From assembly GCA_024762935.1 (NCBI GenBank), contig JANTGK010000008.1, positions 1-41,355 on the forward strand: DNA of 41,355 nt, written 5' to 3'. The position numbers and the translations under genes are program-made. This stretch comes from Candidatus Peregrinibacteria bacterium (GTDB lineage Bacteria; Patescibacteriota; Gracilibacteria; CAIRYL01; GCA-016699755). The notes beneath the pieces were generated by a model. That model ran no database searches. It was given only the letters and a program-made list of their open reading frames with translations, and was not told where the DNA came from. Shown here piece by piece: positions 17,201-41,355 of this stretch (position 1 is the stretch's first letter; every line of letters begins with the position of its first letter).

Positions 17201-19727
17201 TTCAAATGATGAATATATTATTCAGATAGTTGCCGGAGTACCAGATATGTCACATGCAAATACAATAGAGTATACCAAACTTGATAGTATTGGTATTTAT
17301 GGCGAGAATAGTGATGGACGAAGTCAGAATGACCCCCTTATTGCTGATGGAGATGACACTATGCGTCTTAACTTTACCCTCTATGATGTCTTTGGGAACA
17401 TCGTGAAAAAGGAATACAAATATGAAAACAATACGTATGAGTCTTTGAAAACTCCAGAGATGCGCGTCATCTTTTGGGATGAAGTCCTGCTCGATCAGGT
17501 TGAAAACAATGGAATTTCTGGTGAAGCAGTAACAATTAGTGGGGCTGCTCTTGATGGCGGGGCACCATTTTCAAATGATGGTATTCATCATAGTGTAGAA
17601 TTTGTCAATGGAAGTGTCGTTCCGACTGTACTGACTGAAGTTTCATCGATTGCTCCTTCAAACACATATAATTATCAAGTAAAGATTGCTCAAATTGAGG
17701 CAACGGTAACGCAAGATATAGATTCCCTTGATTTTTCTGATGTCGGACAAACAGATGCTCTTGCGAATGGAAAAAAAGTGTACATTCCGGCAGAGCCTGT
17801 TATTACATTTAGTCCGATTATTGCAGCCAATCTTGTGAATTTTGATGTATTTGCAGGGCAGGTGGTCAATACAACAGCAACTTTTTCTGTTGTGCTTACC
17901 AATGAGAGTGATCAGGTAGACATTGATACCTATGATTGGATGGGTATTGCTCGTTCACGAATGCCCGGATCTCTGCAAGGACTTCGAACATATGAATCAA
18001 CAACGCTAGAAAGTACAACGCCTTCATTTACGACAGCTATAAATGATCACTGGCAAGAAATAGCAAGTGTTGCTGCTGCTGGAACTTTTACAGGAGGTAT
18101 TACTGCGGGCCAATTTCCTCTTACTCTTGATGGAAAGATAAATACCGGTACGGATGAAATTAAGGTCTTTGAGAACAAATTTCCTCCTCTTGCGGCGGGA
18201 GATACATATGATTTTTTCTTTCATGCTATACCAAAAAATGAGCCTGGAGATGATGAAATGGCAGAATTTTTACATTATTTTGCTTTTCAACTTGCCGGAG
18301 CACAAGCAGGAAAAACCATAAAATTTCCTCTTCAAACCGCATCGAGCTCAGATCTTGGAACCAGTATAAAACTCTCTATTGCTGGTTCGACTCATGGTGA
18401 TGAATTTGATGAGTCTATTCTCGTGAGTGAGGGGGTAACAGATGAATATAGTTCTGTTGGTCAGATTTATGATCGACAAGAAATTCGAAAAATCATGTAT
18501 GAGAATTATCGTTCTATTACTGGTTTGCGACAACCAAAACCTCTTATTCCAGATGCAAATCTTAATGAAGTGAAAGCTCTCTCTACATGGACTGATTTGA
18601 ACACCGAAAGAAATACAACTCCTATTGCAGAACAATATCGAAGTCTTCTGAATGGAAAGGTGGTGTGGTATGAACGTGATGATACCCATGGGTCACTGAC
18701 AATTGACCTTGGAGATGATACAGAGAATCCATTTGATACTCCTTTCATCATTCCGCCTGATCAAGGACCAATTACTCTTATTGTACGAGGAGGAAATATC
18801 TATATTCGTGACAACATTTTTGTTGGGAAGGGAAGCAACCTTGGAATTGTTGTTTTGAGTTCTCGGAAAAATTCTTCTACAGGAACAGAAGGAAATATAT
18901 TTATCGATCCGTCCGTTACACATTTAGAAGGAGTATTCTATGCAGATGGTTCTCTTCTTTCTGCCGATGATATCGATGAGAGTAACCCCGAAACACCACC
19001 ACTTGTGCCTGATGGGATTATTACAGAAAATGAGATTTTTGATGGATTTTCAGTACCTCTTGTTGAGGAGAAATTTTCGAATCAACTCTTCATTAAAGGA
19101 AGTATTGTCTCACAGAATACAGCAGGAACACTCTCAAAAGTACACGGAGTAGTGGTGTTGCCAAACGAAATATGGCTTCCGGAAGAGTGTCCTACGCTTG
19201 ATGGGTCGGCGGAGACATGTAATGAATCTGCTGAGCAAGAAAAAGCAGCGAAACGCTATGATCTCGAATTTATGCGTCGCTTTATGCTCAGGAATGTTTT
19301 TGATGACACCGATGATGATGGTATTAAAGACTCTGCTGACTGTGATCAGACGCCACCTGCTTCAATAAGTTACGGGGCTTGTGTTGATACTGCTGGAGAT
19401 GGAAATTATTATAATAGTTCGTGTGAGACGGCCTATCATACACCAAAAAGTCAGGATGATATGCCAGAAGGATGTAAACGAAGTGTGACCAAAAAGATAT
19501 CACCTGATGCTGGACATTGTGCTGTTGGAACACCATGGTGTACTGACAAGGAAAATGATTCACCATTCACTCTTACAGGGTGTGGCGATATTAGTGCCTT
19601 ATGTACTTCAGACGGTGTACTTGATAATCCAAAAATGGGTGCAGCGGTTATTGTTGAGTTTGATCCAAAAGTGAAAAAGATTACCCCAGTGGGAATGAAT
19701 CTTCCTCCAGTTGTGAATTTCCAATAG
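14211..19727 (+). CDS. Very large secreted multidomain surface protein with GWI repeats and Ig-like/FN3 domains
   Basis: An 1838-residue protein. N-terminus: signal/anchor helix at about 15-37. Six short tryptophan repeats of the form WSxxxGWIxx occur in two groups (near residues 190-260 and 685-820). Between them lie about three fibronectin-III/Ig-like domains (about 300-400, 412-510, 518-640). Residues 890-1450 are beta-rich and Asp/Asn/Gly-rich. Residues 1520-1640 contain a repeated beta pattern (GGNIYIRDNIFVGKGSN, GNIFIDPSV, EGVFYADGSLL, QLFIKGSIVSQNT) suggesting a bactofilin- or beta-helix-like fold, closed by YDLEFMRRFML; this pattern recurs in large CPR surface proteins. Near 1697, DDTDDDGIKDSADCD is a calcium-binding thrombospondin-type-3-like loop. 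There is no C-terminal anchor or dockerin. Function unknown; probably surface or extracellular structural/adhesion. Confidence 0.85.
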   Translation: MNIFSVQNIWQKIWMTSVYALVIATILLSFPLGGRGAGEYVFTSNTVYLTQGQAISLSSENSGESASYNIVASLSTPTGGQVNQVVVEGVTITAGEAPVQVIAGYDFGIHGGVLTVDVTPVAGKYGIANLTFDLAGTGTGFQSIEIDTRISETGNIVSGQRYGKDAYGGLLDFDAPGAGKVAVTNTHVTGLIWSESFGWIDLQPPGGGVTHTSDGTNEALDGFAWNDDLGWIDFGQIDGSGGVYIDSAGYFQGTAWSENFGYLSFGDSMALDPTPDSLPTTVIDSTQWAKTSWSAGNSSAPTIVQVDPVDLTNFSSRTPTFSFHIEDADSWNKVGYTINVNKKNALNQWDSYKFETHLANLSVNATGENYTHTFATDFVPGQYQWEMWAYDEGGLWSETTGFLEFTILNGAPTVSLDSPADASTITFGNRRPQVSFTITEPDGDKIQYRVEFSEESDFSTILQQSSPLSGYLDAGSYSYTPSTNLPAGTIYWRVVVTDVFGASVATPVEYSFVIQNELPTISNISLRDNANAIIPNAGVTYDTTPTIQWESQDNDGVTMDTYIEVYEDPGVGSRDPSVDTLATVNSVPASLSFPHNAGLQERDIGPFAAGDYYYRIRTKDSDDDYSAWAIDPYQSFTVEARTEFGNVGTANIKGLYPNSMMDDSHDVPLSATPGAGYTDVDSSNNRSVWNKTVGWIDMNPVGGGVVVKNKKLQGYAWSDTLGWIRMNSEAFDTNIGITDSGGNPIGADAITYGVSNNDGNLTGKALIESTGNFLYFDEQSYIDDFPAAGPIGTNSEINVDILCDDNYKGHFTGWGYAPDTGWIAFGRQALIDSGYTANEAADYFSMTEWSCPIASGPVLESNNVYTLFAAQNTEDKSFSIAHKNTEAFSGDLVCSSNDGSQGTEVNIQKMNADGTVDTGVSFSDGVDFSVGCTNKNGDIDGRIWLTIDKSSTLLRTPGLYRIVGDVGDGNGETTAFPEHTPDEGHNFVADSENPGANSNDEYIIQIVAGVPDMSHANTIEYTKLDSIGIYGENSDGRSQNDPLIADGDDTMRLNFTLYDVFGNIVKKEYKYENNTYESLKTPEMRVIFWDEVLLDQVENNGISGEAVTISGAALDGGAPFSNDGIHHSVEFVNGSVVPTVLTEVSSIAPSNTYNYQVKIAQIEATVTQDIDSLDFSDVGQTDALANGKKVYIPAEPVITFSPIIAANLVNFDVFAGQVVNTTATFSVVLTNESDQVDIDTYDWMGIARSRMPGSLQGLRTYESTTLESTTPSFTTAINDHWQEIASVAAAGTFTGGITAGQFPLTLDGKINTGTDEIKVFENKFPPLAAGDTYDFFFHAIPKNEPGDDEMAEFLHYFAFQLAGAQAGKTIKFPLQTASSSDLGTSIKLSIAGSTHGDEFDESILVSEGVTDEYSSVGQIYDRQEIRKIMYENYRSITGLRQPKPLIPDANLNEVKALSTWTDLNTERNTTPIAEQYRSLLNGKVVWYERDDTHGSLTIDLGDDTENPFDTPFIIPPDQGPITLIVRGGNIYIRDNIFVGKGSNLGIVVLSSRKNSSTGTEGNIFIDPSVTHLEGVFYADGSLLSADDIDESNPETPPLVPDGIITENEIFDGFSVPLVEEKFSNQLFIKGSIVSQNTAGTLSKVHGVVVLPNEIWLPEECPTLDGSAETCNESAEQEKAAKRYDLEFMRRFMLRNVFDDTDDDGIKDSADCDQTPPASISYGACVDTAGDGNYYNSSCETAYHTPKSQDDMPEGCKRSVTKKISPDAGHCAVGTPWCTDKENDSPFTLTGCGDISALCTSDGVLDNPKMGAAVIVEFDPKVKKITPVGMNLPPVVNFQ

Positions 19728-24648: not shown

Positions 24649-25419
24649 TTATTTTTGAAATCTTTTTCGTGCAAAAAAAGCAGCAAATCCTGAAAAGGCG
24701 AGAACAGGAAGAAGTGGTAATCCTGTTCCAGGGCTCTCTTCTGCTGCGCTATGAAGTTGTTCAGCAGTAGCGAGCCGAGCGAGTTGAATAGGATCTACTG
24801 TTTCTCCGGTATGCGTATTTATGGGAAAATCATTTATTTCGGTAATTACTTCTGTTCCTGGTGTTTGAACGATTTCTTCTTCTGTATCGAGGATTACCTC
24901 AGGATCTGTAAATTCTATATCGGCAATCTTCTTTGTGGGGTTGGGTGTTTGAGGTTCATCGGAGGCTACTGTTTTGGGTATGGTTGGCTGTACCACGGTT
25001 TCTACTGGTTGAGTCTCTTCAGCTATAGGATGAGTGACTTCAGGTTGAATAGGGTCTATATCGATTTCAGTACCTTCTTCACCATCTGCGGTAACCTCGG
25101 GAACATTGATTTCTACTGGTTCTGCTATCAATTCATCACCATCCGCAAAGTTGGCATTTTCTACGACAGGCATGTATATTTCTTCATTTTGTGAAGAATC
25201 AGAAGTATTGAGTCCCAAAAAAGCAGAATAATTTTTAGAGTCATTTCCCGAAAAGAGAAATGGTGCTGCTCCAATGAGTATGAGAAATACTCCGACACTC
25301 GCGAGTGCGAGAGCTATTTTTCTATTTCGTGCAGACTCTGGCTGATCTGTAGATGATGTATCTCTCTTGTCCTGAGGAGATTTTTTATTATCAGTGACTG
25401 TTGTCCATTGATTTTTCAT
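24649..25419 (-). CDS. Acidic surface protein anchored at both ends
   Basis: A 256-residue protein. A hydrophilic N-terminus (1-33) is followed by a transmembrane helix at about 34-56. A long spacer (60-225) is rich in Glu, Asp, Pro, Thr and Val, reads as disordered and carries strong negative charge. The C-terminus has a short GTGLP-containing motif, a second helix (about 233-250) and a basic tail (ARKRFQK), resembling tripartite C-terminal sorting signals although it is not LPXTG. The spacer should lie outside the cell. It follows the cohesin/FN3 gene by 24 bases. No domain is recognised. It may be a membrane-proximal spacer or docking partner of the cohesin-dockerin proteins encoded upstream; this is an inference from position. 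Confidence 0.7.
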   Translation of the reverse strand: MKNQWTTVTDNKKSPQDKRDTSSTDQPESARNRKIALALASVGVFLILIGAAPFLFSGNDSKNYSAFLGLNTSDSSQNEEIYMPVVENANFADGDELIAEPVEINVPEVTADGEEGTEIDIDPIQPEVTHPIAEETQPVETVVQPTIPKTVASDEPQTPNPTKKIADIEFTDPEVILDTEEEIVQTPGTEVITEINDFPINTHTGETVDPIQLARLATAEQLHSAAEESPGTGLPLLPVLAFSGFAAFFARKRFQK

Positions 25420-25443: not shown

Positions 25444-26610
25444 TTATTTGCGACGAAAAGCGTATCCGAACAGTGCAAGCCCCATGCTAATAATCATAAA
25501 AAAGAGAATATGTTCGGGGCCGGAATCAACCGTTTTATCTGCATTTTCCATGTCGATATCTTTTGGTGTTTTATTTTCTGTTATTGCAGAAGTATCTGAA
25601 TGATCTATTTTTTGTGCATTTGGATCTCCTGTAAAACCATGACTTTCACTACCAGGAAGTCCAACGGTTACAAATACTTCATTTGAATATTCACTTTCTT
25701 GATCAATTTGATCATAAGCTTTTATAGCAAAGAAATATTTTTCTCCAGATGGAAGGTTTGGGAAAAGAGCAAAATTTGTCTTTCCAACATCTCTTCTTCT
25801 GAGGTAATACCCACTTTTTTGGCTGTAGTAGAGGTAGTATCCAGCAATATTAGGATCCTCGTTAATTGGCCAAATAAGTCGAACATTTCCTTGGTCATCT
25901 GTTTGGATTCGAAGTCCTACTGGCTGTTCTAGAGCAGAGCTATTTTTGATTGGGGCGATTACTCCCCCTGTTTGGCTTCCTCCAATGTCAACCCTAGGGA
26001 GAACGGCTCCTCCCACAGGTGGCACAGTACTATTTTGACTAGGAATTCCAAAAATGAGTGGTTTTGGCTCTTCTTTTAGTCTATTTTCTGCTGTAATCCC
26101 ACTCGTAAAAAAGATTCCCGTATCACCAAGTTCAGTATGTTGATAATTAATGAATTTGAGGCTTGCTCCACTCGTAAGGGGTTGAAGAGTGAGAGTTGCT
26201 ACATGAAACTTTTCATTACTTTTTGAGCCTCCAGTAAGAGAAAGTCCAATATTTACGGTTCCTTCGTTTTCATCTATGGTGTTTGAAAAAGGCTCTGGAA
26301 ACGTAAAGTCTGAATCTTCAATATTAATATCTTTTACGAGCAGTGTTTTACTGTCAAATTTTAGTTTTGCATGAACAGAGGTGACCATTTCTCTTTTTGG
26401 GTTGTCGATGACGAGGTCAATAAGCATTGGCTCCCCCGTAAAATGAGAAACAACAAACTCTTCTTGCTCCTCTGGAATATCAGGAACACACGTTGGGTCT
26501 GAATCTTCGCAGTGGAATTGAAATGTGAATTGGAGATGATCTGATGAGGCAAAAGTTGTCCCGGAAAAGAGAAGGAAAACGCCGATCACGAGAATACTAA
26601 GGCGCTTCAT
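25444..26610 (-). CDS. Membrane-anchored cohesin-like / fibronectin-III surface protein
   Basis: A 388-residue protein with a signal peptide at 1-21 (ending TFASS). Residues about 58-175 have the cohesin-like pattern: LIDLVIDNPKREMVTSVHAK (first strands), LKFDSKTLLV, a Gly/Ser loop with VNIGLSL, then VATLTLQPL. Residues about 227-315 form a fibronectin type III domain (VRLIWPINEDPNIAGYYLYY; FFAIKAYDQIDQESEYSNEV). A low-complexity linker leads to SGPEHI, a transmembrane helix at about 365-383 and the basic end FRRK, so the cohesin would be displayed at the membrane. It overlaps the preceding lipoprotein gene by 4 bases (ATGA). It has no dockerin and no catalytic domain. Likely role: membrane-side receptor for a dockerin-bearing protein of the same operon. 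Confidence 0.78.
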   Translation of the reverse strand: MKRLSILVIGVFLLFSGTTFASSDHLQFTFQFHCEDSDPTCVPDIPEEQEEFVVSHFTGEPMLIDLVIDNPKREMVTSVHAKLKFDSKTLLVKDINIEDSDFTFPEPFSNTIDENEGTVNIGLSLTGGSKSNEKFHVATLTLQPLTSGASLKFINYQHTELGDTGIFFTSGITAENRLKEEPKPLIFGIPSQNSTVPPVGGAVLPRVDIGGSQTGGVIAPIKNSSALEQPVGLRIQTDDQGNVRLIWPINEDPNIAGYYLYYSQKSGYYLRRRDVGKTNFALFPNLPSGEKYFFAIKAYDQIDQESEYSNEVFVTVGLPGSESHGFTGDPNAQKIDHSDTSAITENKTPKDIDMENADKTVDSGPEHILFFMIISMGLALFGYAFRRK

Positions 26611-27248
26611 GATTGTGGTGAAAGAGGAAGGGTCGGAACCGAAGGCTCCAAGAGGATGTCGCGAAACATGTTGTCTCCTACTTTTTCAAAGACAACAGTT
26701 TTTTTACTGGATCCAAATCCGTAAAAGTCGATTGATGTAAATGACGGTTTTATTCGAGAGAACGTAATCAGTGCAATTGTTATTTCTTTCTCAGTAGAAA
26801 CACTTCCATCAGATGTTGAAATGCCAATTTTCGCTAATCCATTTTGATGATCAAAGGTATTTTCTCCAGGGGCAGTAACCGAAAATGGTGAATTTTTTGG
26901 GATAGTAATAGATTTTCCAGAAAGAATATCAGGATGAAAAGCAAGGAAACTTCTGACAGCGGATATTTCTTTTTGTTGTGGATTATGAAGGATGAGCTTT
27001 GTAACGACTTCTGAGCGCGTGTCTTTTTCAGTGACAAGTTCTAATGAGGCACTTCTTTGATTATCTATATCTTTCTTTCGAGAATTAGTAATCATAGAAA
27101 CAAGACGACTTTCTGTTTCTGACTCTTCTTTTGAGGGGGCACTTTTTGTCTCTGAGTGTGAATTTGGTGATGAGAGAGGTTTCTCTTGTGATGTTGCACA
27201 AGAAGAGAGAAGAAGAGTGATTCCGATCAAGAGGAATAATTTTTTCAT
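26607..27248 (-). CDS. Cohesin-like lipoprotein
   Basis: A 213-residue lipoprotein: Lys-Lys, a hydrophobic stretch, and lipobox LSSC with Cys17. A Ser/Glu-rich linker covers residues 18-60. Residues about 65-190 show a cohesin-like beta pattern: VVTKLILHNPQQKEISAVRS, FLAFHPDILSG, LAKIGISTSDGSVS, ITIALITFSRI, parallel to the domain in the next gene (LIDLVIDNP..., VNIGLSLTGG..., VATLTLQPL). The stop/start overlaps on both sides are 4 bases (27245-27248 and 26607-26610), so translation is coupled to the giant gene and to the anchored cohesin gene. The cohesin assignment rests on strand pattern and neighbours; another Ig-like fold is possible. Confidence 0.7.
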   Translation of the reverse strand: MKKLFLLIGITLLLSSCATSQEKPLSSPNSHSETKSAPSKEESETESRLVSMITNSRKKDIDNQRSASLELVTEKDTRSEVVTKLILHNPQQKEISAVRSFLAFHPDILSGKSITIPKNSPFSVTAPGENTFDHQNGLAKIGISTSDGSVSTEKEITIALITFSRIKPSFTSIDFYGFGSSKKTVVFEKVGDNMFRDILLEPSVPTLPLSPQS

Positions 27249-30200
27249 TGAAAGTTCGGATAAAATGTATTTGGCATGACTGGCTCATCTTCGATGGGAG
27301 CTGTCCTTTTCTCTTTTTTAGGCTTCAGTATATCTAAGAAGGTCGTTTTTTCTGGGTTTTCTTCTGGCGGATTCATGTCTGTTGGATTATCTTTGGCATC
27401 GGTGTCTTCAGGGATTTTTTTATTCAAATCGACACTTTCAGAAAACCTTGGTGTTCGATCTGCAACAGTTTCATAGGTGAGTCCATACTGTTGTGCGAAG
27501 ACGGAAAAGTCTAAAAAGTCTACTTTGCCATCTTTGTTAAAGTCTGAATCGGGAAGATTCTTTCCATTTGATCCATACTGTTGTGCGAAGACGGAAAAGT
27601 CTAAAAAGTCTACTTGGAGGTCATCATTAAAGTCTGCATTGAGAAATGGATTTTGAATAAAAACATTTGAACTTGCGGCACCAGTTGTTACGCCTAGTGG
27701 AACTTCGCCATCTTCTGTATTGGCGTAGTTTTCTTTTATTTCTGTTGAGGCAACAACGGTGTTCGTGACCATTCCTTCTGAGATGGCAACAAATCGTGTG
27801 AGGAATGTGTATGTTTGCCCAGGCCCGAATGAGGGGATAAGACAATCAATCTGAGAGACATCATTCTGGCAAGAAAATGATCCTAATGGCTCTACTTCAA
27901 GGAGTTTTATAAGCTGCTGAGGAAAATCATCAGTAATGGACACATTTTGAAACATCTGACCTTCAGTTCTATTGGTAATGGAGATGCGAAATTCAATTTC
28001 TTCATTTATTCCCATATCGACCTTGTTTGGTGTTTTTTTGATTAAAAATGGATTTCCAGGGTCGATAACAGCCACATTGGCACTGGAGACACTGAGTGTT
28101 TTGTCTTCACTGATAGCAGAAATAGTATTTGTAGCGAGACCAGGTGAGATTGCCTTAAATTTTCCTACCATAGTGTAGTCAGCTCCAGGTGGAATCTCAT
28201 CAATGACACACTGTATTTCTGACTCATCATTTCCACATGAGAACGCATCTGATGTATTTATTTCAAGTACTTGAATGATATCGCTCGAGAATGTGTCGAG
28301 AAGAACGACATCGTGGAGTGCTTTTTTATTATTTTCATTACTGATGTGGATGGTGAATTCTACATTTTCTTCAAGACTTGCTATCTCTTTGTCTACTGTT
28401 TTTGTGATAACAAATGGATTTTTTCCATAACTAGAAAATGCTGAAAATGTCTTTATATCAGTTCCTTTTCTCAGTTTTTTTCCGGTGTAATCAATAAGAT
28501 CTGTTGCCCGAAGGATATAGACAGATTCAGGAACCTGGACACCAGTAGAGAGGGTAATGGTATGGTCATTTTTAAATTGTGCCCCACGTACAGGGAGCAC
28601 CTTCCCTGACCCTTTTGCGGTAATGCTGAAGTTTGCTCCATCAGTGAGAAGGCTTGAAAATCGAAGTGGCTTTCGGAAGACGACTTCAATAGCATTTGGG
28701 CTAACGGAGGTCACCTTTTCTATCTCAAAGAAGAGCTTTCGTTCATGAATAGTTGGAACAGTGAAACTCGCTTGGTTATCCGTTTGTCGGATTTGTCTGA
28801 GTCCAAGCTGTTCAGCGTCAGCAAAGAGTGTAAATCGGTCTCCTTCATTCATATAATTTGTTCGAAGGGTTACTACTTGTCCATCAGTTCTAATATCGAT
28901 GTCTTTTATAGGGAGATGTGTGTAGATATCATTAAAGAACGAAAGAGTAAATGCATCACTTCTTATCTTATCGGGATTAACAGAAGAACTGAAAAAAGCT
29001 TGCACTTCATTTTTTTCTGTTGCTACGGCAGAGACAAGATGGGGAAGATCTTGTAGAGCGAGCGGAAGGGTACCATCGCTCACAAAAATAGGAACTTCAG
29101 CTTCAGCTTTTCGACCATCAGTATCGGTTGCTACTACCGAGATAAAATATGGATTCTGACTTGCGGGAACATCTTTTCGAACGGTGAGGTCTGGAAGATA
29201 GAACCACCTTCCTCTGCTTCCTTCTGAAACAGATGGAATCATACATCCAAAGGTATCTGTTGAAACACATCCTGGTACGGTAATAGGGTCTCCCTCAACG
29301 GGGGGATCCTTTTGATCTTCTTCTCCTTCTTCTTTGTCATCTTTTGCGGGTGTAGCACCATCAGCAATGGTAAAATCTTTCTGTATACAAACTCGTTCAT
29401 TATTTATCCAATAACATCCATCATCAATAATTTCTTCAGCTCTTGCTGTTGGAAAAAGGGAAGCCTGAGGAGCTGGTATTTTTTTCCCACCATCAGTTGT
29501 GTTGAGTTGTTCTTGCAAGAGTTCTTCTTTCTTTTTTTTCTCTGCATCCTCTTCTTGTTTAATATCTGTTATTATTTTTTCTTTGATGAGTCTATTATTT
29601 TCCTCTGGAGTAATGTGTCGGAGTATTGTTCCAAGGTTTGCAGTGACATGGGTAATAGGGGCGTCTCCTTCCTCGACAAAGACGTACAGTGTTCCTCTTG
29701 CATCTTGGTCATTTAAGAAGGTCCGCGGGTTCGTATATGATCGATCAGCAGGAATAGTCGGACTATCTCCAGATGTGTCTGGTGTCGAGACATGAAAACG
29801 AAATCCAGTTTCGGTCACATTTCCATCAATGTCTGTTGCAGAAACAGTAAGGGTTCTGAATCCAGGGATAACTGATCGAGGGATAGTTAGTTTTTCTGTT
29901 GCATACCACGCCCCTGTTCCTTCGATTTGACCTTTGGTCATTTCCAAAGGAGGTAGTCCAATGGGTGCGAGGTTTACCGAAACAGAAACAATATCTTCAT
30001 GTCCATTTGGATCTGTTGCTTTTGCAAAGACCTGAAATTCGGTTTTATTGTCATTTGGGATGGAATGTTTTGGTGAGACAAAAATATCATTTTCATTTAT
30101 TTGAGGTGATCCGGTCGAGTCTCTCGCAATCCGAAGAGTAATTTCTCCAACTGCTTCTGTTCCTTCACGGTCTATGGCAGTAAGAGGAAGAGTATAGACT

Positions 30201-33200
30201 CCTTCTGGTACCCAGTTAGGAATTTTATATGGATCACTCTGATACCAAATTTTGTTTCCAAATATGGTAACAGCATGAGCTTTAGGAATGAGAAAATCGA
30301 GTGCTCTCATAAGTGCCTGTCCATCAGTGTTTTGAAGGTAAATATTACAATCACGCCATTGAGAATTTGGTTTGTTGGCTTCTCCAACACAGGTAGATGT
30401 TGGTTTTTTGTGCCACTGTTTTTCTTGACGATAGAGGTAACATTCACCCCACTCCTCATCTTGTTCCCAGTCAGCTGTGCTGCATTCTCCACCAGTACAG
30501 TCTCGTCTCTCCTCAGGTTTTTTTCCGACCTCAAGACATTCTATTCCAGGTTTAAGTTCTACTGAACGCATTTGTACTCCCAGAACACAATCTGTCCACG
30601 GTTCAATAACATAATCGTTCCGTGAGCATTCTCGGTCTTCTTGAATTTCGTCAAGTGGCTGGAGAACGATAATTCCAAGTCCTACTTGGGAGGCATCAAG
30701 GACAACACGAGAAACATTGATTCCTCCATCTTCATCTGAGATTTCAACCTGAAATGTTACTTCTGTTTCATCTCCGGGAGAGACCTGGTCAGGAGCTGCA
30801 GTCGCATTTTCAATAACGGGAGGAAGACTCGATTCGAGATCTCGATTTACAAGAAGTGTGACAACACCAGTTCCGGTTCTTCCGGTCTTATTCTCAACAG
30901 TGATAGGAATTTCTGTGGCCTCTTTTGATGTTGGGATAGTGCTCGGAACGGTAATCTCTCGTTTGTACCAAGCCATTCCATCTATAAAAGCCATATCATT
31001 GACTTTTTTGATAATCGCACCACCCTCATCCCAGCGATCGGGATCAGAAGTAGAAGTTTCTTCAAGGTGATGAAGTGAAAGTGAAACAGCAGCTGGTCCT
31101 CCTATTCCTCGGAGATCAGCAGTGACCTTTTCAATATCTGAGACTCCTCGTGGATCTTTGATTCGAACCCAAAGGGTGCTTGATGTGACACCATCATTGG
31201 GAACCCGATATGGCATTGCATATGATTCCTCTGAGAGTACGAGAGGAGCCATCTGCGCTTCTATTTCTGAATTGATGACGGTAACTGCATTTGGTAGTCT
31301 GCTCTCATCACCAGCTGGAGAAACGACGACAATATCATAGGAATCCATTTTAAGATCCTCTGGCGTTTCAATATTGAGCTGAGTATCAGAGATAAAAGTT
31401 GTAGGAAGGGTTTGGTTTCCTATCCTGACAATACTGTTTTCTGGAAAGTGAACCCCTATTATGGTTACTTGTGTTTTTTCTCCGATTTGAACCTCTTTTG
31501 GCGAGAGAGATACAGCTCGCATCTGCTCTTGAGAATATCCGACAAACCCTCGACTATTCGGAATCCCTAGTGTTTCTCCGTAGGCACTACGAACGCTTTC
31601 GGGGAGGACAACAGCAGAATAGGATTGTTTTTGTTTCTGAACTTGTGTCACAAGAGTAATACTATTGCCTTTTCCTTCGGCAGAAATAATCTTTAGTTTT
31701 CTGGGGAGTTCTGCAGTATCTTTTGTCCAGATTTGAAATTGAAGAGGCGAGAAAGTTTTTGCTTCGATTTCTTCAGAGAATGTCAACACAACAGTGTCTG
31801 GAGATGTCGCTTCTGCTGATTCAAGTCCAAAATCCCAGGGAGTAAAGAAACTTCCTTGTCCAATAAATGATTCGATATTTCCAATAAGACTTATAGCAGC
31901 ATTTCCGTCACGGTTTGATTTAATGCTTCCTGGTCGTATGGTCATGACATAATTTCTTCCAGCAACGGTTCGTACATTGTGAAAAATAATACTCGTGTGA
32001 TCTGGTGAGATTTCAAAAAATGTCTCAGAAGTAATAAGGTTTTGGCTTCTTCCTTGCTCAGTAATGCTAAAAGCATCAAGGACAATCGAACTTCCGAGTA
32101 CAGGAGTGTCAAAAGTGACTTCGACAACATCTGGTTTTCGAGCAGAAATATTGTCGATTACAGGACCATCAGAGTTATACCCAAAAGGGGTAAAGCGAGC
32201 GATATTGAGAGAGAGTAGTTCACCCGCAGTTGATTTTGGATCATGAATGTTGCTTGCCTTATTAATGGTGAGCCAACTGCTTCCACCAAGAATCGCTTGA
32301 GAACTTGTATGAAGAGTAACATTCTTTCCACCAGACTGATTGGCTGCCAAAACCGTCAATCCTTCTATATGGAAATCTTCTGCTTCGATAGATTCGGGAT
32401 TAACCGGTTCCGTGAAGCCGATTACTACAGAGGTGTCTGAGGTTGCTTGTACATTTTGAATCTGGAATCGGCTGATGGGGTATTGTAATGGGAATCCCTG
32501 AAAGAACATATAGTTATGATCAGGAGAAAGAGTACCAGCAATATTTCCAGTGATATGTTCCTGAAGTTCTACTGAATAGAGCTCATCAGGAATCATGGTT
32601 GTAAGATTCCGTATGATAATACTGTTGCCATCAACCTCAAATTCAGTCGAGCTATTTTTTAGTCGAGGAGTAAAAGTAATATCAGTAAGGTCAGCAGCAA
32701 TAATATTATCAGAAAATATGAGTCGTATACTGCTTGATGAGAGAGGGATACTATCAATAAGACGGAGTGAGCTTACCGGACTTGTGAGAATAGTTCCAGA
32801 ATCGACATTCACAGGTACCAAGCCAAGGGTAAAGGTATTGACGGTATCCATTTTTCGAATCGAAAGGGGAATACTCTCTCCGAATGGAACATTATCATGA
32901 ACAAGGAATCGTAAAGCGAGAAGAGGGTCACTAAAATCAAGATTTACTCCATCTAGTGAGCCAGTAGCACCGAGGATTCCTATGTGATTTTGCAGGGAGT
33001 CTTCTGTAATAAATGCAAAACCCGCGTCTTCAAGGGGAGTTCCTACTGTTTCATATCCAAGAAAATCCATTTTAGACTCTGGATATTCCAAGTCGAACAT
33101 AAAACCAGCAATATCTTGTTGTGTGCCTGATCGAAGAAGAATAACTCTTTCCTCTCCTGGTTTTGCCAAAATATCATCTTCAAAGTAAAACTCACCGGTA

Positions 33201-33805
33201 AATTGTTGTTGGAGATTTGGATTTTTCGGATCTCCTACTCGGATTATACCGCTTTGAATGGAGCTGAGGGTATAGCTCTGAAGAATAGCACTGTCATAGA
33301 CAATTTCTACATTTGAAAGTGTGATAGGTATCTCATCACCGAGTTCAGTATTTTCTCGGATAGAGAACATAATATTGAGAAGATCTCCATCAGTAGGGAC
33401 AGATAGCCCGGTAGCTCCTCCTGTCCAGACAGCAACTTGAGCAGTATTGCTCATGGGGTCATTGGTAACGGTGATATCAAAGTCGGTATTCTCAAATATG
33501 GTCTCATCAAGAACGGCTCCTAAAAATTCAACTTTTTCTTTTGGCCATGAAAAGTCGAAATAGATGCCCATCAAATCATCTCTTGCAAAAAGTGGAAAAT
33601 CATCTCCTGCACGGACGACAATCTCACCATTTTCGCCAGGGTTTGCAATAAAATCATTTGGAATAAACACCTGCTCACTACTCGTCTGTTGTGTATGCGT
33701 AAAGAGACTCGCTGAGAAAAATTTTTCAGAGAGACCTACAAAAAATGATATCACGAGGAAAGCGAGGATCAATAGGCCGAAAAAGAATCCTTTTTTATTC
33801 TTCAT
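27245..33805 (-). CDS. Giant surface protein with N-terminal cohesins and C-terminal dockerin
   Basis: A 2186-residue secreted protein. Signal peptide at 1-33. Two cohesin-like domains at about 45-192 and 200-340 (each begins IANPGE/LAKPGE, with GIYFDFSWPKEKVEFLG and GFMFDLEYPESKMDFLG). About four SbsA/Big-type Ig-like modules lie at 343-760 and an IPT/TIG domain at 761-846. Further Ig-like modules include a Cys-rich thrombospondin-1-like insert at about 1052-1153 and a Lys/Glu coiled segment at about 1398-1437. Two DUF11 domains are at about 1800-1915 and 1920-2030. A type-I dockerin lies at about 2055-2112, with two calcium loops DFNDDLQVDFLD and DFNKDGKVDFLD, each followed by FSVFAQQYG. 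A Pro/Lys-rich tail covers 2113-2186. No hydrolase or SLH domain seen. Role inferred: scaffold or fibre that can bind and be bound. Overlaps by 4 bases with both neighbouring genes. Confidence 0.85.
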   Translation of the reverse strand: MKNKKGFFFGLLILAFLVISFFVGLSEKFFSASLFTHTQQTSSEQVFIPNDFIANPGENGEIVVRAGDDFPLFARDDLMGIYFDFSWPKEKVEFLGAVLDETIFENTDFDITVTNDPMSNTAQVAVWTGGATGLSVPTDGDLLNIMFSIRENTELGDEIPITLSNVEIVYDSAILQSYTLSSIQSGIIRVGDPKNPNLQQQFTGEFYFEDDILAKPGEERVILLRSGTQQDIAGFMFDLEYPESKMDFLGYETVGTPLEDAGFAFITEDSLQNHIGILGATGSLDGVNLDFSDPLLALRFLVHDNVPFGESIPLSIRKMDTVNTFTLGLVPVNVDSGTILTSPVSSLRLIDSIPLSSSSIRLIFSDNIIAADLTDITFTPRLKNSSTEFEVDGNSIIIRNLTTMIPDELYSVELQEHITGNIAGTLSPDHNYMFFQGFPLQYPISRFQIQNVQATSDTSVVIGFTEPVNPESIEAEDFHIEGLTVLAANQSGGKNVTLHTSSQAILGGSSWLTINKASNIHDPKSTAGELLSLNIARFTPFGYNSDGPVIDNISARKPDVVEVTFDTPVLGSSIVLDAFSITEQGRSQNLITSETFFEISPDHTSIIFHNVRTVAGRNYVMTIRPGSIKSNRDGNAAISLIGNIESFIGQGSFFTPWDFGLESAEATSPDTVVLTFSEEIEAKTFSPLQFQIWTKDTAELPRKLKIISAEGKGNSITLVTQVQKQKQSYSAVVLPESVRSAYGETLGIPNSRGFVGYSQEQMRAVSLSPKEVQIGEKTQVTIIGVHFPENSIVRIGNQTLPTTFISDTQLNIETPEDLKMDSYDIVVVSPAGDESRLPNAVTVINSEIEAQMAPLVLSEESYAMPYRVPNDGVTSSTLWVRIKDPRGVSDIEKVTADLRGIGGPAAVSLSLHHLEETSTSDPDRWDEGGAIIKKVNDMAFIDGMAWYKREITVPSTIPTSKEATEIPITVENKTGRTGTGVVTLLVNRDLESSLPPVIENATAAPDQVSPGDETEVTFQVEISDEDGGINVSRVVLDASQVGLGIIVLQPLDEIQEDRECSRNDYVIEPWTDCVLGVQMRSVELKPGIECLEVGKKPEERRDCTGGECSTADWEQDEEWGECYLYRQEKQWHKKPTSTCVGEANKPNSQWRDCNIYLQNTDGQALMRALDFLIPKAHAVTIFGNKIWYQSDPYKIPNWVPEGVYTLPLTAIDREGTEAVGEITLRIARDSTGSPQINENDIFVSPKHSIPNDNKTEFQVFAKATDPNGHEDIVSVSVNLAPIGLPPLEMTKGQIEGTGAWYATEKLTIPRSVIPGFRTLTVSATDIDGNVTETGFRFHVSTPDTSGDSPTIPADRSYTNPRTFLNDQDARGTLYVFVEEGDAPITHVTANLGTILRHITPEENNRLIKEKIITDIKQEEDAEKKKKEELLQEQLNTTDGGKKIPAPQASLFPTARAEEIIDDGCYWINNERVCIQKDFTIADGATPAKDDKEEGEEDQKDPPVEGDPITVPGCVSTDTFGCMIPSVSEGSRGRWFYLPDLTVRKDVPASQNPYFISVVATDTDGRKAEAEVPIFVSDGTLPLALQDLPHLVSAVATEKNEVQAFFSSSVNPDKIRSDAFTLSFFNDIYTHLPIKDIDIRTDGQVVTLRTNYMNEGDRFTLFADAEQLGLRQIRQTDNQASFTVPTIHERKLFFEIEKVTSVSPNAIEVVFRKPLRFSSLLTDGANFSITAKGSGKVLPVRGAQFKNDHTITLSTGVQVPESVYILRATDLIDYTGKKLRKGTDIKTFSAFSSYGKNPFVITKTVDKEIASLEENVEFTIHISNENNKKALHDVVLLDTFSSDIIQVLEINTSDAFSCGNDESEIQCVIDEIPPGADYTMVGKFKAISPGLATNTISAISEDKTLSVSSANVAVIDPGNPFLIKKTPNKVDMGINEEIEFRISITNRTEGQMFQNVSITDDFPQQLIKLLEVEPLGSFSCQNDVSQIDCLIPSFGPGQTYTFLTRFVAISEGMVTNTVVASTEIKENYANTEDGEVPLGVTTGAASSNVFIQNPFLNADFNDDLQVDFLDFSVFAQQYGSNGKNLPDSDFNKDGKVDFLDFSVFAQQYGLTYETVADRTPRFSESVDLNKKIPEDTDAKDNPTDMNPPEENPEKTTFLDILKPKKEKRTAPIEDEPVMPNTFYPNFQ
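27482..27615 (-). repeat. 44-bp perfect direct repeat inside the dockerin
   Basis: Bases 27482-27525 and 27572-27615 are identical over 44 bases, 90 bases (30 codons) apart. They encode the shared VDFLDFSVFAQQYG part of the two dockerin calcium-binding halves. The lack of synonymous differences points to recent duplication or gene conversion. Confidence 0.95.
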
Positions 33806-36318
33806 TTCAGATAGTTTTTAAGAAGGGTACGAAATTCAACCATAAAATCACGAATGCTAATGCCATTGAGACCATCATGGTCAAGTGCGAGTTCCTGAAG
33901 GCTTGATGCGGTCGTGTTTCCACTAATGATCCGCATGGTTAAAACAGCATCAACAAGATCAACTGATTCGTTGAGGTCTGCATCTCCAGAAATCGGATCT
34001 CCAATATAGAGGGGGAGGACTGCTTGTACAGAGTTTTTTAGAGCAAGTCCGTTCGCATTTCGAACGGTAAGTTCTAATGTATGTTTTCCTTGTGTAATAT
34101 CATCAAGAAGTGGAATAAAGAAGGGGATTTGCAAGAGAACAGTTTTCTTTTCTTTATTTTCAGCAATGATATTCTCTGGAAGGATTTCAATGGAAAAGTG
34201 TTGCACATCTGCTGGAATGCTTTCGGGAGTATCGTAGCTACCACGAATAAGGTTGAGTTCTATGTCTCCAATATTTTCGAGAGTTCCAAAGTGACGAAGT
34301 CGAACAAAAAGAGTGTCAGAAGTTCCTTTTGCAAATCCCTGATTCCCAGCTGTTCGAATAGAATCGATATATGGGACGGGGTCACCAATAAGAATACTGA
34401 TTTCATCTGAAATTATTTCTGTAAATTTCTGAGTAATATTACTCTCTCCAGGGAATGCGATTTTTTCCAATACTTTTGCACGAATAGAAAATGTTCCTGT
34501 CGCTAGTGGCTCTAATATTCCTTGTGATATATTTCCTTCGCTAGAATTTGATGTCCATGCACCACCGTTGTAGCTAAATTCCCATGTGATTCCATCTTCG
34601 GTATTTGCCCGAAGAGATCCATCAGCATAGGTATTTTCGGCAGTAAGAGTGACATGATCTGCTTGAGGAAGCTCCAGAACGTTGGTAAATGGATTTCCAG
34701 ATTCATCAAGAATTGTAATTTTATCGAGTGCAGGAGGGAGGACGTGAATAGTTATATTTCTAATATTATTATTTTCATCAAACATCTGAAGGAGTGCTGT
34801 TCCTTCATTCTCTGTAGATTCAAAAACAACAGAATCTTTGTCGTAGCAGATCATTCCGATACCAGAGTCGTCACATGGAAGATTGGTCGTGACATCTCGG
34901 AGTATGCCAAGGGATTTGTCTTCAAGAAACCAGTTGAATACTCCATCTCCTCCAAGACCAGAAAAGATGATTCGATTATATTTTGCACGAACGTTGTAAC
35001 CGGCCTCTTCAGCTCCTACAGAAATGGGGTTGGAATACGTCATTGTGTCTGTTCCTCCTCCAGTTCGCACGGGGAAATTCTGTACTATATTTCCATCGAT
35101 ATCTGTTCCGGTGTTGATATCACTAATGACCTTTATCGTCACGGCATTACTGGTAACACCATTATATGTAGCGGTAATATTTGCTATTCCTGCTTGGGTT
35201 GTAGTGAGGACATTCCCGCCAAGAGTTCCAATGTTTTGGTAATTGAAAAAATTTGCCGTATCTGTGACGTCTTGTTCATTTGCAAAAAGATAAGAAGCGA
35301 TGACCGTAAAGAGGCATTGCTGTCCAATGAGGGTATTTCTCCCTTCACAACTGCTGCTCAGACGAAGAGATTCTATTTCTGAATCAACCACTTTTACGCT
35401 GGCACCAGTGCTCCCTTCTGCAGATTCAGCACTTGAGAGTGTAAGCGTATTTGCTGCTGTTCCAGACTGAATTCCTCGGTATGTGGTCAGTATTGTTTCT
35501 GTCGCACCGGGGGCGAGACTCAGCATGTTACATCTGATTTCACTGACATCATTTTGACAATTAAGCCCAGCACTTTCCTGAACACTGAGGAGCTGAAGAT
35601 TATTTTCTGGAAAATCATTAACAACATTGATATCGGTCAATACTTGAGCATCAGTTCTGTTTTGAATAGAGATATTAAAGTTTACTTCTTCACCGACTTC
35701 TATTATTGGCTTATTGGGTTCTATTGAAACAAGAAAAAGATTTCCCGGGTCTGCAATAATGATACTCGATGAAACCGCAGCAGTATTTGTATCTTGATCT
35801 GTTACAGTAGCGATGTTTGTTGCTGTTCCTGGTGCAAGGGCAGTAAATTCTGCGGTAACAGAAGCACTTTCTCCTTCATCAAGACTGAGCATATTACATC
35901 GGATCTCAGTAGCATCGATAATACAATTAAATCCAGTGGCTGCTGTAATAGCATTTGCTTGTAAAAAAGTTTCTGGAAAATCATCGACCAGAAGTATGTT
36001 GTTGACGGCAAGGGGTACCGGAGGAAGATCTGGTGGTGCCGATGGATCTTCTGTACTTTTGTTGGTAACAGTAATGGTATAAGAAACCGTCTCACCGACA
36101 TCTACTGTTGTTTTATCAGGAGATTTCGTAATGAGAAGAGCGCCAGAGTCTGCCAAGAGGTTTACAGAATTTGTAGTGGTATAGCTTAGTCCGGTGTTTT
36201 CATCTTCAATAGTTATATTACTGAGTATAGAACTCTCAGCTTTTGAAGAGAGAGAGTTTCCTAGAAATATAATACTTGGAAGTATGAGAAGTGCCGAAAG
36301 AAGGAGTGTTTTTTTCAT
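33802..36318 (-). CDS. Secreted DUF11 / Ig-like protein with C-terminal dockerin-like module
   Basis: An 838-residue protein with a signal peptide at 1-27 (ending SKAES). Two DUF11 (conserved repeat) domains lie at about 56-190 and 194-312, each starting with a SPDK/EPNK...VGETVSYTITV-type strand and each with a Cys pair (CIIDATEIRC, CQNDVSEIRC). A bacterial Ig-like (Big-type) domain at about 314-400 carries two further cysteines; more beta-rich modules extend to about 770. The C-terminus (about 778-838) is dockerin-like. Its first half has the calcium loop DADLNESVDLVD followed by a helix. Its second half (LDHDGLNGISIRDF) is degenerate at loop position 5. It overlaps the giant gene by 4 bases. 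Role inferred: dockerin-bearing partner for one of the cohesins encoded in the same operon. Confidence 0.8.
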   Translation of the reverse strand: MKKTLLLSALLILPSIIFLGNSLSSKAESSILSNITIEDENTGLSYTTTNSVNLLADSGALLITKSPDKTTVDVGETVSYTITVTNKSTEDPSAPPDLPPVPLAVNNILLVDDFPETFLQANAITAATGFNCIIDATEIRCNMLSLDEGESASVTAEFTALAPGTATNIATVTDQDTNTAAVSSSIIIADPGNLFLVSIEPNKPIIEVGEEVNFNISIQNRTDAQVLTDINVVNDFPENNLQLLSVQESAGLNCQNDVSEIRCNMLSLAPGATETILTTYRGIQSGTAANTLTLSSAESAEGSTGASVKVVDSEIESLRLSSSCEGRNTLIGQQCLFTVIASYLFANEQDVTDTANFFNYQNIGTLGGNVLTTTQAGIANITATYNGVTSNAVTIKVISDINTGTDIDGNIVQNFPVRTGGGTDTMTYSNPISVGAEEAGYNVRAKYNRIIFSGLGGDGVFNWFLEDKSLGILRDVTTNLPCDDSGIGMICYDKDSVVFESTENEGTALLQMFDENNNIRNITIHVLPPALDKITILDESGNPFTNVLELPQADHVTLTAENTYADGSLRANTEDGITWEFSYNGGAWTSNSSEGNISQGILEPLATGTFSIRAKVLEKIAFPGESNITQKFTEIISDEISILIGDPVPYIDSIRTAGNQGFAKGTSDTLFVRLRHFGTLENIGDIELNLIRGSYDTPESIPADVQHFSIEILPENIIAENKEKKTVLLQIPFFIPLLDDITQGKHTLELTVRNANGLALKNSVQAVLPLYIGDPISGDADLNESVDLVDAVLTMRIISGNTTASSLQELALDHDGLNGISIRDFMVEFRTLLKNYLK

Positions 36319-36348: not shown

Positions 36349-36918
36349 TTAAGGACTGAGACTCTCTTTTTTGGTTCGAAGGAGAACACCACTTGTTTGG
36401 AAAAATGATCCACTAAATGTTATCGGTTGTTGGAATGTTCCATCAAAAATCATGGTAAAGAGAGGTTCTTGGCTGGCAACAACAGGTGTATACGAACCAG
36501 CTGTAATAGAGAAAGGGTGGTAGTAGACGATTGGTTTATCTGTTTCTATGCCATCAAGCTCAGCAGTAAACCCCGTTGGGGTGACGACTTCCACGAGCTT
36601 CATTGTTTCTGGGAGATTCATTTCAAGAGTAACGGTGTCGACTATGTCTGCTTTACTCACATTATTCAGAAAAACAGGGATACGAATACCAGTCTCTGTT
36701 TTTTGTATTTGTGCAGATGAGAGAGTGATTTCTCCTGGAAAATTATTTGCTTTGAGAGAAATATTTTTTTGACCAAATGTATGTGCTGGAGAAGAGATTT
36801 CTTTCTGTGGTGTTTGCACAGGAGCTGTTTCTGATGGCACACCCTGTGGTGCAGTGCAGCCAGTCAGGACAGCAATACAAATGGTAACACCTGCTCCGTT
36901 GATTATATGATTTTTCAT
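36349..36918 (-). CDS. Cohesin-like lipoprotein, first gene of the surface operon
   Basis: A 189-residue lipoprotein with lipobox LTGC (Cys21). After a Pro/Thr/Ser linker, residues about 50-180 have a cohesin-like strand order: GEITLSSAQIQ, GIRIPVFLNNVSKADIVDTV, LEMNLPETMKLVEVV, SITAGSY, PLFTMIFDGTF, ITFSGSFFQTSGVLL. I start at the ATG at 36918. The frame is open 15 codons further, but the promoter at 36954-36983 overlaps that extension, and the lipoprotein signal begins at MKNHI. Thirty bases separate it from the dockerin-like gene downstream. Probable role: lipid-anchored receptor that holds dockerin-bearing proteins at the membrane (inference). Confidence 0.72.
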   Translation of the reverse strand: MKNHIINGAGVTICIAVLTGCTAPQGVPSETAPVQTPQKEISSPAHTFGQKNISLKANNFPGEITLSSAQIQKTETGIRIPVFLNNVSKADIVDTVTLEMNLPETMKLVEVVTPTGFTAELDGIETDKPIVYYHPFSITAGSYTPVVASQEPLFTMIFDGTFQQPITFSGSFFQTSGVLLRTKKESLSP

Positions 36919-36953
36919 ATACTTCTTTTTCGAAAAAACAAATTTTTCATAAG

Positions 36954-36983
36954 ATTGTAGCATTTCAGGGTCCTCTGGAGCAA
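36954..36983 (-). promoter_or_regulatory. Promoter of the cohesin-dockerin operon
   Basis: Minus strand: TTGCTC (36983-36978), an 18-base spacer, TACAAT (36959-36954), with an extended -10 TG one base before it. The expected start near 36947 leaves about 29 bases before the ATG at 36918, with a weak AAGAAG ahead of that start. Confidence 0.5.
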
Positions 36984-40601: not shown

Positions 40602-41355
40602 CTATCGAATCTGCTTGAGGGTTTTATGTCCATTACTGCTGGACTCCATTTCAAGGCAGTATCCACCGTAGAACCTATCCTGGTGAGTTCTCCATTTTTG
40701 AGGAATAAAAATTCGGTATTTTCCATTTGCAGGAAGAGTCATTGACATTTCTTGAGAGAGAGTGCCTGTTACAGTTTTTTTAAATCGTACATCTCTGATG
40801 CGGTCATTAACTCTCATCTTTACTGCATTACCATTACTGATGCCTTCATAATCAGGATCGACCGTCATCCGAAGAGTGACTTGTTCATGTGCTGATCCAG
40901 AAAAAGTGAATACATCTCTGTCTCCTCCATAGCCAAGAGTGGTACAAACTGTTTGTTCACCTGATGATGCTTCACACGCATCACCAACTCCATCGTTATC
41001 AGCATCTGCTTGCCACTGATTTGGTACTGCAGGGCAGTTATCTGTATTATCAGGTACGTTGTCGTTATCACTATCTAATGGTGTACCAGTGATTACAGGA
41101 ATAAGTGATTTGCTTCCTCCTCCTCCATTTCCGAGTTGTCCAAACCAATCTTCTCCCCAGCAATATACATCTCCATTTGATCGGTATCCGCAGCTATGAT
41201 TCATTTCACTTCCAATACTGGCCCAATCCGTATATCCACCGGCAACTTCCGTTGGTACAAGGCGTTGAGTGGTGGTTCCATCACCGACTCGACCGGAGTC
41301 ATTTTTACCCCAGCAGTATCCTTGTCCATTTGCTCGTACTCCACAAGAGTAATGA
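40602..41355 (-). CDS. RCC1-repeat / thrombospondin type 3 secreted protein, 5'-truncated by the window edge
   Basis: About 250 C-terminal residues are visible; the frame is open to the last base of the window. First come RCC1-like propeller repeats: HYSCGVRANGQGYCWGKNDSG and, 50 residues later, MNHSCGYRSNGDVYCWGEDW with GQLGNG. Next is a thrombospondin type 3 calcium-binding segment (DSDNDNVPDNTDNCP, DADNDGVGDACE). The last 115 residues form a beta domain like bacterial pre-peptidase/PPC C-terminal domains (DRDVFTFSGSAHEQVTLRM; GKYRIFIPQ). The internal ATG at 41204 is not the real start because the repeat pattern runs through it. It is probably an extracellular, calcium-stabilised binding protein. 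No C-terminal anchor seen. Confidence 0.85.
   Translation of the reverse strand, partial: HYSCGVRANGQGYCWGKNDSGRVGDGTTTQRLVPTEVAGGYTDWASIGSEMNHSCGYRSNGDVYCWGEDWFGQLGNGGGGSKSLIPVITGTPLDSDNDNVPDNTDNCPAVPNQWQADADNDGVGDACEASSGEQTVCTTLGYGGDRDVFTFSGSAHEQVTLRMTVDPDYEGISNGNAVKMRVNDRIRDVRFKKTVTGTLSQEMSMTLPANGKYRIFIPQKWRTHQDRFYGGYCLEMESSSNGHKTLKQIR

Follow-up and report, generated by a model that had tools for sequence, protein, structure and literature searches.

In cellulosomal primary scaffoldins of the CipA/ScaA type, cohesins share a chain with a dockerin that attaches to cohesins of separate anchoring proteins, as set out in the available portions of a review (PMC12484212). Outside cellulosomes, proteins that combine a single dockerin with several cohesins have been described for anaerobic methanotrophic (ANME) archaea (available portions of PMC9012536). 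Here, we analyze a locus of similar composition on a stretch of 41,355 nucleotides from Candidatus Peregrinibacteria bacterium (assembly GCA_024762935.1, contig JANTGK010000008.1, positions 1 to 41,355), referred to in its full length as the window. At its center stands a giant surface protein, termed BIG, that is encoded next to a DUF11 protein, termed UP, and directly upstream of genes for two further cohesin proteins, a lipoprotein and a protein named Coh-Fn3 that combines a cohesin with an Fn3 domain. An earlier note on this DNA had described BIG as a protein of 2186 residues with cohesins at the N-terminus and a dockerin at the C-terminus and had proposed that it might chain with itself head to tail into a long fibre. 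Pfam, profile searches and AlphaFold2 bear out this layout, which is read from the minus strand. As to its use, we assign a probability of about one half to the reading that the BIG dockerin docks chiefly to the cohesin of the lipoprotein encoded by the next gene, which would yield a heterotypic, scaffoldin-like surface complex.

BIG unites cohesins and a dockerin in one chain

The N-terminal modules of BIG are cohesins despite having been missed by Pfam, which called no cohesin in BIG of the window and matched zero families when cohesin 2 was scanned alone. This assignment is based on three concordant lines of evidence. First, a cohesin profile built exclusively with sequences from other genomes, i.e., with the window excluded, recognized both modules (Table 1). 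Second, PF00963 matched three of the 11 rows of an alignment of BIG-cohesin homologues (best E value 4.2e-5). Third, the AlphaFold2 model of cohesin 2 (predicted local distance difference test score, pLDDT, 87.2) retrieved nothing but cohesins on ranks 1–38 of its PDB matches and aligned with the ScaB cohesin from A. cellulolyticus over 135 residues (Z 15.3, 2.2 Å). The corresponding model of the lipoprotein aligned with a cohesin from C. perfringens over 130 residues (Z 15.1, 2.3 Å), and both models exhibit the nine-stranded jelly-roll fold of cohesins. Searches of PDB sequences with the whole of BIG or with the Coh-Fn3 and lipoprotein profiles did not retrieve any cohesin; their matches were due to chance, to Fn3 or, weakly, to dockerins. 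The two cohesins of BIG are 26% identical in an alignment.

At the opposite end of the chain, Pfam Dockerin_1 (type I) matched residues 2057–2102 with an E value of 5.8e-4 in the protein scan. In a genome-wide scan with PF00404 the same element reached 26.3 bits against a cut-off of 22.9 and was the single Pfam dockerin of the genome; the window sequence shows two F-hand repeats that are nearly identical. In combining at least two cohesins with a dockerin in a single chain, BIG resembles cellulosomal scaffoldins, and a relative (L074) provides a natural single chain of 1164 residues that likewise holds both kinds of modules. The DUF11 and Ig-like modules that the earlier note had seen as the shaft are also present, with two DUF11 stretches and a TIG domain detected by Pfam. 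The DUF11 pair is related to the DUF11 part of UP (match to 35431–36141, E value 3.4e-37).

Two classes of cohesins and two classes of dockerins

Comparison of the cohesins by hhalign revealed two classes. The cohesins of the lipoprotein and of Coh-Fn3 belong together with a probability of 99.95, and those of BIG group with the N-terminal cohesins of UP proteins from relatives (98.9), while values for cross pairs were only 0.2–34. UP of the window itself has no such N-terminal cohesin, only weak profile matches, and the module is present in UP proteins of some relatives.

The dockerins, too, fall into two classes, as became apparent when their recognition residues were compared, a check that the earlier note had called for. 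In class B, the dockerin of BIG, position 10 is F and position 20 is Y or F without exception in the 31 in-register repeats, which come from 22 BIG proteins (63 raw matches, the out-of-register ones having been set aside by hand). In class U, which UP carries at its C-terminal end, 23 of 24 matches were in register; of these, 20 have L, M or I at position 10, and just three show an aromatic residue at position 20. The class-U dockerin of the window is missed by Pfam; copies in relatives do match PF00404. Among PDB sequences, class B comes closest to the DocCel48 dockerin from B. cellulosolvens (2y3n, E value 5.3e-7). In DocCel48, mutation of Met17 and Phe27, the equivalents of positions 10 and 20, abolished binding (available portions of PMC8063739).

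This resemblance to a dockerin, the invariantly aromatic residues at both recognition positions and the cohesin genes adjoining BIG speak against the possibility that the C-terminal repeats bind no cohesin at all and act as a calcium-binding end cap or as a sorting element. What could be put forward for such a role is that 13 of the 22 BIG proteins (L037, L043, L044, L045, L091, L100, L102, L103 and others) have a single F-hand repeat only, that the motif also resembles ordinary EF-hands and that similar motifs occur in records from Gemmatimonadota, Latescibacterota, Planctomycetota and DPANN archaea. We regard it as the least likely of the alternatives considered here. Dockerin-like motifs from outside the Peregrinibacteria were collected as L054–L112, and these records include Verrucomicrobia in addition to the groups just mentioned.

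The lipoprotein cohesin tracks BIG across genomes

BIG was matched in 15 of 40 near relatives, its own genome counted. Two of these 15 matches contain an in-frame TGA, in keeping with the Gracilibacteria code. Loci of this kind occur in named records from Peregrinibacteria, Gracilibacteria and the 'Patescibacteria group'. Many of the loci fetched from relatives show the same gene order, from UP through BIG, the lipoprotein and Coh-Fn3 to the last gene of the run, and the core of the cluster is conserved across Peregrinibacteria/Gracilibacteria. For a broader view, 288 genomes of the class were inspected. The Ig-like core that served as the marker of the BIG family was found in 29 of them, 26 of which were kept in the presence table (three with E values above 1e-14 were omitted), and the class-B dockerin in 32, the table omitting seven with a match outside BIG and retaining the 25 with the match inside. 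The lipoprotein/Coh-Fn3 cohesin profile matched in 83 genomes and PF00404 in 84. The presence sets and the adjacency list used below for family f5 were tallied by hand, and the BIG copy of one genome is partly masked, so that its dockerin was not judged.

Lipoprotein and BIG co-occur: 23 of the 25 genomes with the lipoprotein are among the 26 with BIG (Fisher 1.3e-28). One of the two lipoprotein-only exceptions, G088, carries a BIG fragment with dockerin upstream of its lipoprotein, probably on the same contig as L095. Conservation differs markedly between the cohesins. In the same 14 genomes, mean identity amounts to 0.25 for the BIG cohesin, 0.36 for that of the lipoprotein and 0.43 for that of Coh-Fn3, with 8, 23 and 31 columns, respectively, conserved at 80% or more.

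Family f5 shows what such loci look like when BIG is largely missing, as BIG is present in only one of its 56 Coh-bearing genomes. In 29 of these 56, Coh-Fn3 is immediately preceded by a PF00404 dockerin gene; in 11 of 13 loci fetched with such a dockerin, we observed an open reading frame of 104–145 residues composed of a hydrophobic segment and a dockerin, and two of six loci fetched without a Pfam dockerin match likewise show a small dockerin reading frame. The small dockerins of f5 lack the aromatic recognition residues. Loci L113–L129 (e.g., L113:1372-3140) represent a minimal system with a small dockerin gene followed by Coh-Fn3, in several cases with the gene for a protein with two membrane segments downstream. 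One f5 genome has a downstream gene with a weak cupredoxin-like match (L115:3324-4499).

Candidate partners of the class-B dockerin

Two indirect lines of evidence lead us to favor docking to the lipoprotein: runs of this kind encode cohesins and dockerins of two classes each, and the lipoprotein cohesin tracks BIG across the 288 genomes. Furthermore, the recognition helix of class B is invariant and BIG's own cohesins diverge fastest, which fits better with a conserved partner, and the arrangement in f5 makes pairing between separately encoded cohesins and dockerins a recurrent pattern. Since the neighboring small dockerins of f5 are devoid of aromatic recognition residues, Coh-Fn3 probably pairs with the class-U kind of dockerin. 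If it does, class B is left for the lipoprotein or for BIG itself. We envisage that the class-B dockerin, with its aromatic recognition residues, would bind to the cohesin of a different protein, the lipid-anchored lipoprotein being the most likely one, and that BIG's own cohesins would be left to receive another dockerin, such as that of UP. Instead of a homopolymer, a surface complex would arise that is heterotypic and depends on calcium, and it may function in adhesion or host contact.

Several points weigh against this proposal. By itself, the co-occurrence of lipoprotein and BIG does not discriminate between the lipoprotein and the cohesins of BIG, as the latter always accompany the dockerin. 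In three genomes from one related genus (G004, G005 and G008), BIG stands alone and the lipoprotein is encoded elsewhere, and in three others (G007, G019 and G122) BIG is present and no lipoprotein was detected. In genome G001, three cohesin proteins face a single detected dockerin. Many relatives carry only the single F-hand repeat, and if BIG is anchored at its N-terminus, its far end could reach a lipoprotein in the membrane only by looping back or on a second cell.

Genomes G007 and G019, which have BIG and Coh-Fn3 but no detected lipoprotein, fit with promiscuous docking, in which the class-B dockerin would bind the cohesins of both the lipoprotein and Coh-Fn3 such that either membrane protein could hold BIG. 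The close relationship of these two cohesins, which have conserved stretches in common, fits as well. On the other side, Coh-Fn3 resides in many genomes devoid of BIG beside the small dockerins without aromatics, so that its cognate dockerin is probably of the class-U kind. Overall, promiscuous docking appears unlikely to us, albeit the least so of the alternatives.

The head-to-tail arrangement suggested in the earlier note would require that the BIG dockerin binds the cohesins of the next BIG molecule, resulting in a fibre or, if all molecules remain anchored, in a mesh that extends laterally or a zipper that joins sister cells. Both kinds of modules are indeed available in one BIG chain, and its cohesins have no other assigned partner. 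Support for it comes from G001 (99% complete, 1% contamination), a member of the window's own family, in which the PF00404, class-B and class-U profiles each find one dockerin place, on BIG, and which retains the BIG cohesin, the lipoprotein and Coh-Fn3. BIG of G001 has five DUF11 stretches, and UP has perhaps been absorbed into it. With one dockerin place, the class-B dockerin must serve the remaining cohesin functions, those of BIG's own cohesins included; this argument would fail if a divergent dockerin escaped detection or if the assembly had a gap. What speaks against self-binding, on the other hand, is that BIG's cohesins change fastest while the dockerin recognition positions remain invariant, and that separate cohesin genes co-occur with BIG and adjoin it. 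Moreover, the C-terminal dockerin of scaffoldins attaches to another protein in known cases (available portions of PMC12484212), and the portions of the open-licence literature on non-cellulosomal, adaptor, head-to-tail and single-repeat cohesin/dockerin cases available to us contained no natural self-polymer. The probable N-terminal membrane anchor disfavors a free fibre in particular. We therefore consider self-pairing of BIG improbable, and we see an equally small chance that at least some of these ultrasmall bacteria build a calcium-dependent BIG homopolymer, which would then take the form of a surface mesh or a cell-to-cell zipper and not of a free fibre.

Probable membrane anchoring

A crude hydropathy test placed a hydrophobic N-terminal segment above threshold in 12 of 19 BIG proteins, with at most 39 residues ahead of it. 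Some of those below the threshold have a longer polar N-terminal stretch when inspected by eye. This favors an N-terminus that serves as an uncleaved membrane anchor, in some relatives possibly after a long cytoplasmic segment. With such an anchor in every copy, tail-to-head binding would produce a mesh or a bridge between cells instead of a free fibre. In some relatives, a gene for a protein with multiple membrane segments lies upstream of UP (L091:539-1546, L100:722-1798 and L102:3115-4200). Pfam 60KD_IMP (PF02096) matched two of these three, one of them above the cut-off, which suggests a YidC/Oxa1-type insertase dedicated to the cluster; a gene of this type opening the cluster would be in line with membrane insertion of BIG. 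A juxtamembrane motif approximating [FL]x[AG][DSNA][LI] follows the N-terminal hydrophobic segment in BIG (33700–33730 in the window) and in the BIG, UP and last-gene proteins of relatives, and it may constitute a processing or sorting site.

Organization of the gene cluster

BIG belongs to a run of six minus-strand genes that encode, from upstream to downstream, a putative lipoprotein, UP, BIG, the cohesin lipoprotein, Coh-Fn3 and a protein with two membrane segments (Table 1). Overlaps of 4 bp connect UP with BIG, BIG with the lipoprotein and the lipoprotein with Coh-Fn3, and the outer gaps amount to 30 and 24 bp. Because of these three overlaps and the short outer gaps, the run probably forms one transcription unit. 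The cohesins that the earlier note had assigned to the two genes downstream of BIG were confirmed, for Coh-Fn3 by Pfam and the leave-out profile and for the lipoprotein by the structural model. Coh-Fn3 scored 20.9 bits with PF00963, below the cut-off of 24.1, and homologues in PF00963 scans reached E values down to 4.2e-5 and 5.3e-6. A further cohesin had been claimed for 36349–36918, at the putative lipoprotein upstream of UP; this claim did not hold up, as the protein has no Pfam match and matches the cohesin profile only weakly.

Table 1. Features of BIG and of the gene run in which it is encoded. Residue numbers refer to BIG.
Feature	Position	Strand	Evidence and remarks
BIG, surface protein of 2186 residues	27245..33805	minus	Extent of open reading frame exact; membrane segment and two cohesins at the N-terminus, shaft of Ig-like, TIG and DUF11 modules, class-B dockerin at the C-terminus
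N-terminal hydrophobic segment, residues 7-25	33731..33787	minus	Either a signal peptide or a signal anchor; hydropathy of 2.81 across its 19 residues
Cohesin 1, residues 41-192	33230..33685	minus	Profile built without the window, E 1.5e-24
Cohesin 2, residues 202-349	32759..33202	minus	Profile built without the window, E 2.9e-17; AlphaFold2 model
TIG domain, residues 766-827	31325..31510	minus	Pfam, E 1.2e-7
Conserved Ig-like core, residues 1171-1410	29576..30295	minus	Family marker
DUF11 pair, residues 1797-2021	27743..28417	minus	Pfam DUF11, two stretches, best 1922-2022
Class-B dockerin, residues 2052-2113	27467..27652	minus	Two F-hand repeats; Pfam, profile
UP, DUF11 protein of 838 residues	33802..36318	minus	C-terminal class-U dockerin; Pfam
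Class-U dockerin, C-terminus of UP	33814..33996	minus	Profile A8, E 1.9e-23, window copy among the 8 rows of the profile
Cohesin lipoprotein	26607..27248	minus	Lipobox, Pfam LPAM_1; AlphaFold2 model
Coh-Fn3	25444..26610	minus	Cohesin, Fn3, C-terminal membrane segment; Pfam Cohesin E 4.4e-4 and fn3; profile without the window E 8e-29
Last gene of the run	24649..25419	minus	N- and C-terminal membrane segments; position kept in relatives
Putative lipoprotein upstream of UP	36349..36963	minus	No Pfam match; weak cohesin-profile match, E 0.038

The families of Coh-Fn3 and of the last gene of the run share a C-terminal motif containing GP or TG that is followed by a hydrophobic stretch and a basic tail and resembles a sorting signal. 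Elsewhere in the window, a plus-strand gene (14211–19727) encodes a protein of 1838 residues with weak Ig-like matches, a further candidate for a giant surface protein, and a protein with thrombospondin type 3 and RCC1-type repeats is encoded at 40602–41204.

Significance and comparison with known systems

Peregrinibacteria and Gracilibacteria have small genomes, and few or no cultures exist. Their surface machinery for cell contact is largely unknown, and the conserved, compact cohesin-dockerin apparatus described here is a concrete and testable candidate for it. It comprises a giant stalk together with its own membrane-anchored cohesins, and in f5 a minimal version made up of a dockerin and a cohesin. 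Since its modules are of small size and probably soluble, measurements of their pairing do not depend on cultivation. Self-pairing, should it prove true, would put cohesin-dockerin chemistry to an unusual use in nature, one that to our knowledge has not been described.

In the available portions of the open-licence literature on cohesins and dockerins in the Candidate Phyla Radiation, Peregrinibacteria, Gracilibacteria and Patescibacteria, we found no cluster of this kind, nor is one described in the available portions of PMC9177762 and PMC11573180. The ANME archaeal proteins differ from BIG in their domain company and in their phylum, and no conserved cluster of the order seen here is described in the available portions of PMC9012536. 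The cohesin–FN3 double module from C. perfringens (PDB 2w1n), which both cohesin models matched in the PDB, has a cohesin followed by Fn3 just as Coh-Fn3 does, but it belongs to a glycoside hydrolase, whereas Coh-Fn3 is a small membrane-anchored protein. With respect to recognition, the closest parallel is the type II pair CohScaA11-DocCel48 from B. cellulosolvens (PDB 2y3n), in which hydrophobic residues at positions 10 and 20 serve in recognition (available portions of PMC8063739), although class B has F and Y where DocCel48 has Met and Phe.

Compared with the cellulosomal primary scaffoldins, the BIG run contains neither a carbohydrate-binding module nor a glycoside hydrolase nor an SLH domain, and its six proteins include no dockerin-bearing hydrolase, as judged by Pfam and NCBIfam; no enzyme domain was found in the run. 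Because the run has no cellulose-related modules, we do not class the system as a cellulosome. Here, the shaft consists of Ig-like and DUF11 modules, the candidates for anchoring are a lipoprotein and a membrane protein, and the organism is of the Peregrinibacteria type. In its layout, the BIG system is nevertheless cellulosome-like.

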